DNA from: Candidatus Melainabacteria bacterium
GTDB lineage: Bacteria > Cyanobacteriota > Vampirovibrionia > 2-02-FULL-35-15
NCBI GenBank assembly: GCA_023250195.1
Contig: JAHFBF010000006.1
Span: 1 to 64,000, forward strand
DNA: 64,000 nucleotides
Reading direction: 5' to 3'
In this document: positions 53,957 through 54,776 of the stretch, one piece after another
Position numbering within the stretch: the first letter of the stretch is position 1
Layout of the letters: the number at the start of each line of letters is the position of its first letter
Notes under the pieces: model-generated
What the model was told of the DNA's origin: nothing
What the model saw: only the letters and a program-made list of their open reading frames with translations
Database searches by the model: none
Program-made: the position numbers and the translations under genes

Positions 53957-54658
53957 AAGTTAAGAAGATTAAATTTTTCTAATAAATTTGGAAAATCAAG
54001 AATAGATTCAAGTCCTGATCTACAGATAGATGGAAGTCACTCTATAGAAGTTACAGGAAGTCCTGGTGCTAACCTCACAACATGTGAAGAAGCTGTAGTT
54101 ATTGAAAGTCCGAATTTTGTAGGGACTAACAGTATTGATTTAAGAATTACAAGTAGTGCTGGTGCTACTGTTAATAATAGTCCTATTGTAACTCTTACAG
54201 ATAGTCCAGGGACTAATTTGGACAGTTGTTCTAAATCTATAGTTATTAGGAGTGGAGACTTTACAGGAGAAGGTAGTTCAAGATTGAACATTGTAGATAG
54301 CTCAGGTTCATCTATTACAGAAAGTCCTCGAGCAACACTAGAGAAAAGCCCAGGTTCAAAACTTATTACAAGTAATAGGCCTACTTTAGTTGAAAGTGCA
54401 AATTCTACAATTCATAATTGTGATGGGGGAATAATCACAAGAAGTCCTGGTACTTATACTGAAGATAGCTCTGATGTAAAAGTTACAAATAGTCCAAATA
54501 CAAAGGTAATAGATAGTATTGATGCAAATGTGGTAGAAAGTCCAGGAGCACACTTGGAAACTGCTGCTGGCTCTGAAGTAGTAAGAACACCAAATATTCA
54601 TTTAGTAAATGAGCAAAATGCTAGATATGTAAACGGTGTAAAAGTAATCTTGAACTAG
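53957..54658 (+). pseudogene. Octapeptide-repeat solenoid ORF without a normal start codon
   Basis: Open for 233 codons from after a TAA (53954-53956) to TAG (54656-54658). From 54011 to 54634 it is exactly 26 contiguous octapeptides with no indel. The pattern is S-P-x-x-x-(I/V/L)-x-(polar): for example SPGTNLDS, SPNTKVID, SIDANVVE, SPGAHLET. Position 1 is Ser, Cys, Thr or Ala in 25 of 26 (Cys in units 4, 10 and 18). Position 6 is Ile, Val or Leu in nearly all. Probably a beta-solenoid. There is no ATG or GTG in frame before the repeats; the only ordinary start is TTG at 54218, inside unit 9. So it is a 5'-truncated gene, a frameshifted one, or starts at a rare codon. It may also be the 3' part of a longer surface protein. 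Confidence 0.75.
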
Positions 54659-54776
54659 CTCTTATGACTCGACTACTATCTTATATCTACAATCTGTAAT
54701 TATAATAACCGGATTTTTTATAAAGCAGAGGTTATTTGTGATTCTCTGATTCTCTAATTTCTGATACTCTAGAACT

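Follow-up and report, generated by a model that had tools for sequence, protein, structure and literature searches.

An octapeptide-repeat frame without a start codon in a Melainabacteria genome: probably the truncated last copy of a lineage-restricted solenoid gene

How can a long and very regular octapeptide array stand in a fully open frame that has no start codon? Such a frame lies in the window (the whole stretch of 64,000 nucleotides analysed here, from a Candidatus Melainabacteria contig). The reading that we consider probable is that a lineage-restricted family gene has left here its last copy, without the 5' part and most likely a young pseudogene, and that intact members of this family would serve as intracellular scaffolds or binding surfaces. 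The features on which the argument relies are as follows.

53957..54658, + strand: open frame of 233 codons plus stop, read as a 5'-truncated member of the cap-plus-octad solenoid family
53957..54010, + strand: putative remnant of the end of the cap (N-terminal) domain, KLRRLNFSNKFGKSRIDS, aligned in register with a relative's KLGKQTFSSNAEGNFVDN
54011..54634, + strand: octad array, 26 octapeptide units, equal to 13 coils of 16 residues
54059..54346, + strand: 6-octad (48-residue) block duplicated internally, units 3-8 versus 9-14, with 20/48 residues identical
54218..54658, + strand: sub-frame of 146 aa from a TTG, the first conventional start, which may give a shortened product
54635..54658, + strand: C-terminal tail GVKVILN and stop, compared by eye with a relative's C-terminal end ..VCNGKIVVIKN..

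The octad array and its predicted fold

The array proved as regular as originally predicted: its 26 octads fill 54011-54634 without remainder, stop or shift of register, and residue counts over the 26 units bear out a fixed pattern, position 1 being Ser in 20 units, Cys in three and Ala, Thr or Glu in one each, position 2 Pro in 11, position 6 Val, Leu or Ile in 22, and position 8 polar or Gly in every unit. The period-8 information amounted to 273 bits, whereas 2000 shuffles of the residues averaged 94 bits and never exceeded 133. At the nucleotide level, the units are well diverged without any indel, as had also been described (mean identity 45%, maximum 71%). Ser codons were always AGY at position 1 and always TCN at positions 2 to 5, the pattern to be expected if a single ancestral unit was copied in tandem long ago. 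In addition, unit-to-unit identity was highest at a shift of six units, and units 3-8 and 9-14 look, in their sequences, like a 48-residue duplication. The tail comparison with one relative suggests that the 3' end of the gene is complete.

The original prediction had further proposed a two-sided beta-solenoid built of 16-residue double units, since Cys at position 1 falls only in even units. Indeed, these Cys occur in units 4, 10 and 18, which alone is weak evidence (about 0.11 by chance, by our own arithmetic), and a test over all octad positions separated odd from even units (P = 0.013), SP[GN] being the usual opening of odd units while all three Cys stand in even ones. A 24-residue unit was not supported (P = 0.17). 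The AlphaFold2 model of the window protein, made with four aligned sequences (mean pLDDT 90.4, pTM 0.85), supports the 16-residue unit, with strands of three and five residues that alternate and repeat every 16 residues. The window protein is therefore predicted, with high confidence, to be a needle-like beta-solenoid with two octads per 16-residue coil, in which the core would be lined by the position-1 serine (sometimes cysteine) and the position-6 Val, Leu or Ile, with the polar positions facing outward.

A lineage-restricted family with an N-terminal cap

With the window protein as query, relatives were found in other genomes of the same taxonomic family (E down to 5e-11), and an octad profile built from these relatives, without the window protein, recovered the window copy at E 3.4e-14. 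The cap-plus-octad solenoid family is defined in this analysis, from Melainabacteria genomes; three named relative records belong to 'Candidatus Melainabacteria' isolates nzgw190, nzgw191 and nzgw193. The window protein alone had no match in the genome contigs, whereas an alignment of three relatives used as query did find matches there; viral contigs held no relatives at E <= 1e-3, and 11 aligned members differed too much from one another to allow a pattern search.

Complete relatives begin with an ATG, followed by a recognisable N-terminal domain of ~100 aa and then by octads; only in a 515-aa member (in genome G005) is the N terminus so divergent that the domain profile missed it. They span 265-515 aa, the long ones having 435-515 aa and those that neighbour ffh or nanE 265-367 aa, and their coils are in places separated by insertions. 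Length is thus not fixed in the family, and the selection on length that had been deduced from the indel-free array is not supported by the relatives. In the model of a full-length relative, strands and helices make up an N-terminal domain, and a 16-residue-coil solenoid interrupted by low-confidence inserts follows it; the domain would cap the start of the solenoid, from which the octads wind into coils, two per coil. The window protein matches the octad profile of the family, and AlphaFold2 gives 16-residue coils for both it and the relative, while of the ~100-aa N-terminal domain with its start codon only the last 18 residues are recognisable. On these grounds, we identify the window protein as a truncated member of the family.

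The family appears, among the genomes searched, in only one group of non-photosynthetic relatives of cyanobacteria. The cap-domain profile gave only chance-level matches outside the taxonomic family (60 relatives) and, in 386 genomes drawn from the phylum, no match at E <= 0.001 outside it; what matched weakly in the other families of this class was either a different repeat protein or chance. In Pfam and NCBIfam, no model matched the window protein at a meaningful score, and Rfam gave nothing. The earlier remark that no family has this exact octad therefore holds for Pfam, NCBIfam and PHROGs, the coil length being that of ice-nucleation proteins, and the solenoid family is, as judged from these comparisons, undescribed in the libraries searched.

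In two relatives, the cap domain with a few octads is joined to a RecB-like nuclease of the TM0106 type, which has an RNase_H_2 domain (L067:2476-4680, 735 aa; L069:758-2845, 696 aa). These fusions occur in one genus, sister to that of the window, and an ordinary, unfused TM0106 paralogue is present in 10 of the 11 genomes (the exception, G010, is 79% complete). The fusion suggests that the cap domain and first coils may act as a targeting or assembly module, and provides the first lead to the role of the cap. By eye, the relatives have no obvious signal peptide, so that the most plausible guess at their role is a scaffold or a binding surface within the cytoplasm; intact members are most likely rigid. 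The family, uncharacterised, lineage-restricted and very regular in its octad, adds to the few known proteins with 16-residue coils, and sister genomes offer complete members for studies of structure and function.

The missing start and the origin of the truncated copy

Neither ATG nor GTG precedes the repeats in frame, as first noticed, and in-frame TTG is absent there too; the first conventional start is the TTG at 54218, within unit 9. Three explanations had been offered: a remnant of a larger protein, an upstream frameshift, and a start at a rare codon. The first gains support from the N-terminal domain of the relatives, which is undetected genome-wide here, and the second fails as the sole cause, because only 38 bases separate the stop of the preceding phzF-like gene from the frame and a simple frameshift cannot hide a cap domain in them. 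For the same lack of room, a cap domain in another upstream frame was rejected. The opening 18 codons, which are non-repeat sequence, pair in register with the closing residues of the cap domain, with 4-5 identities over 18 residues only (fixed-register shuffle test, P about 0.003). Another alignment, with the window protein on top, joined its N terminus to the cap start; it was judged spurious, and alignment to the solenoid ends of the relatives was used instead. The window frame opens just where the cap domain of the relatives would end, and lacks a start codon because the front part that they carry was probably lost here.

The cap-domain profile had no match anywhere in the window's genome, which is 98.9% complete, and no full-length copy was found elsewhere in it, the family searches matching the window copy only. 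Both loci that hold a member in same-genus genomes, nanE-ffh in G001 and ilvE-methyltransferase in G002, are without one in the window's genome. The window copy is thus the genome's only detected member, although octad proteins unlike the family profile would escape these searches. At the locus itself, DNA similarity to sister genome G002 runs through the phzF-like gene, ends at the stop codon of that gene and returns just before secD, with the same order of the two flanks; between them, a small ORF and a transaldolase gene stand in G002 instead of the octad frame. We suggest that the gene lost its start codon through a deletion or rearrangement, which joined it, from the last cap codons on, to the phzF-like gene's end; the result would be a young pseudogene in which decay has not yet reached the repeats. 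The fragment would either have moved to the phzF-secD locus or have stood there first.

Since the frame is fully open, the loss must be recent or the frame must still be in use. Its 233 open codons with ordinary codon-position composition are unlike an old pseudogene and count against a relic; we nevertheless think it distinctly the better-founded choice, given that the sequence offers no start before unit 9. Expression of a cap-less solenoid from a non-standard codon (such as ATA at 54002) or from the TTG at 54218, the product working without its cap, is the strongest competitor, albeit unlikely. It would account for 702 bases without a stop or register slip, and even with no cap present the AlphaFold2 model is a well-formed solenoid. 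A Shine-Dalgarno-like site is lacking at the relatives' own ATGs likewise, so that its absence at the window frame says little. However, there is no conventional start before unit 9, promoter-like sites around the frame are no more frequent than in shuffles, and the other members found retain their start and N-terminal part. If such a product were still made from a non-standard or internal start, it would represent a domain-shedding step in a family that, in a sister genus, also has its cap joined to a RecB-like nuclease, a scenario to which we give slightly less weight again. That the genome holds a complete gene whose 5' part was removed by a misjoin seems very improbable: the genome is a draft in 7 contigs and repeat genes are prone to misassembly, but the first 18 codons are non-repeat, the cap domain was found nowhere else in the nearly complete genome, and the phzF and secD flanks match the order of the sister genome. 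The truncated relic thus remains the preferred reading, and the puzzle of the missing start codon is most likely one of ordinary gene decay.

Several smaller features were noted around these loci. Just downstream of the frame, at 54700-54745 of the window, an inverted repeat (AATAACC...GGTTATT), possibly a terminator, was not among the hits of the terminator scan. In G002, an inverted-repeat element (CATTGCGAGGAGC...GCAATGACG, L057:2570-2860), MITE-like by eye, lies between the transaldolase gene and secD and is absent from the window. A short family member stands beside ffh in three genera (L065, L068, L078), a position from which the window's genome has lost it; in L065 and L068 it neighbours a small gene with no Pfam match.

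Comparison with known solenoids and other octad proteins

One of the closest likenesses is to the ice-nucleation proteins (INPs; InaZ, PbINP; PF00818), whose tandem octads are also paired in the 16-residue coils of a predicted beta-solenoid. INPs have a 48-residue higher-order repeat, an order common to the window protein (units 3-8 and 9-14). That the window protein is an ice-nucleation or ice-binding protein, a 16-residue-coil solenoid with a water-ordering face, is nonetheless the least credible of the readings considered. It shares the coil length and the two octads per coil with the published INP model, and its serines would form ladders that face inward as they do in that model (PMC9418140). 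However, only 2.5 of the 16 residues per coil match the INP consensus AGYGSTQTAGEESSLT in the best register (shuffles: mean 1.87, maximum 2.54), whereas at least 6 residues match in every repeat described (PMC9418140). SLT and YGS are absent, TxT occurs only twice, and the window protein thus lacks the TxT/SLT/YGS arrays; PF00818 has no match at E <= 10. INPs also have ~50-80 coils, compared with 13 here, and the N-terminal domain of the relatives is unrelated to theirs. Ice nucleation by the window family is, on these sequence comparisons, not supported: the 16-residue coil of INPs is known, and what seems new is a lineage-restricted family that fails their sequence test.

The C-terminal trimerisation domain of T4 gp5 (PF22178, VxGxxxxx) is likewise an octapeptide repeat with one regular hydrophobic position. 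PF22178 gave a sub-threshold match in one relative (E 0.36) and none in the window protein, where the Gly two residues after the hydrophobic position occurs in only 3 of the 26 units, at odds with VxGxxxxx; the window protein is, moreover, predicted to be a single-chain solenoid. A general solenoid architecture is also common to right-handed beta-helix and pentapeptide-repeat proteins (AlgG, tailspikes, QnrB, HetL; Foldseek E down to 6.8e-6), but all those listed have a TM-score by query length below 0.4 and longer coils or a different repeat, and none matches the window protein in sequence. A pentapeptide-repeat protein was itself rejected, the period being 8 rather than 5 and a Pfam match lacking. 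Among the solved structures listed, none reached a TM-score of 0.4 by query length, either for the window protein or for the full-length relative; the best structural match by TM-score was a predicted 502-aa viral protein (BFVD A0A7D3UWC8; TM 0.78 by query length, rmsd 4.0).

Other members of the same class also encode long repeat proteins of octad period (L012, L031, L033). In contrast to the window protein, with which they have no pairwise similarity, their octads follow A-x-x-x-[SA]-x-V-x, without the SP[GN] motif and without a cap domain; the one in L012 matches phrog_15773. Those at L031:1-2265 and L033:1-2511 are very long (frames of 1287 and 917 aa), of the AxxxAxVx type and from large-genome members of the class, with no Pfam family above cut-off. 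In G021, octad-repeat genes stand in tandem (L029:607-1335 and 1339-2037), the second of which has a match to phrog_15773 (E 3e-17) and a weak one to phage baseplate proteins.
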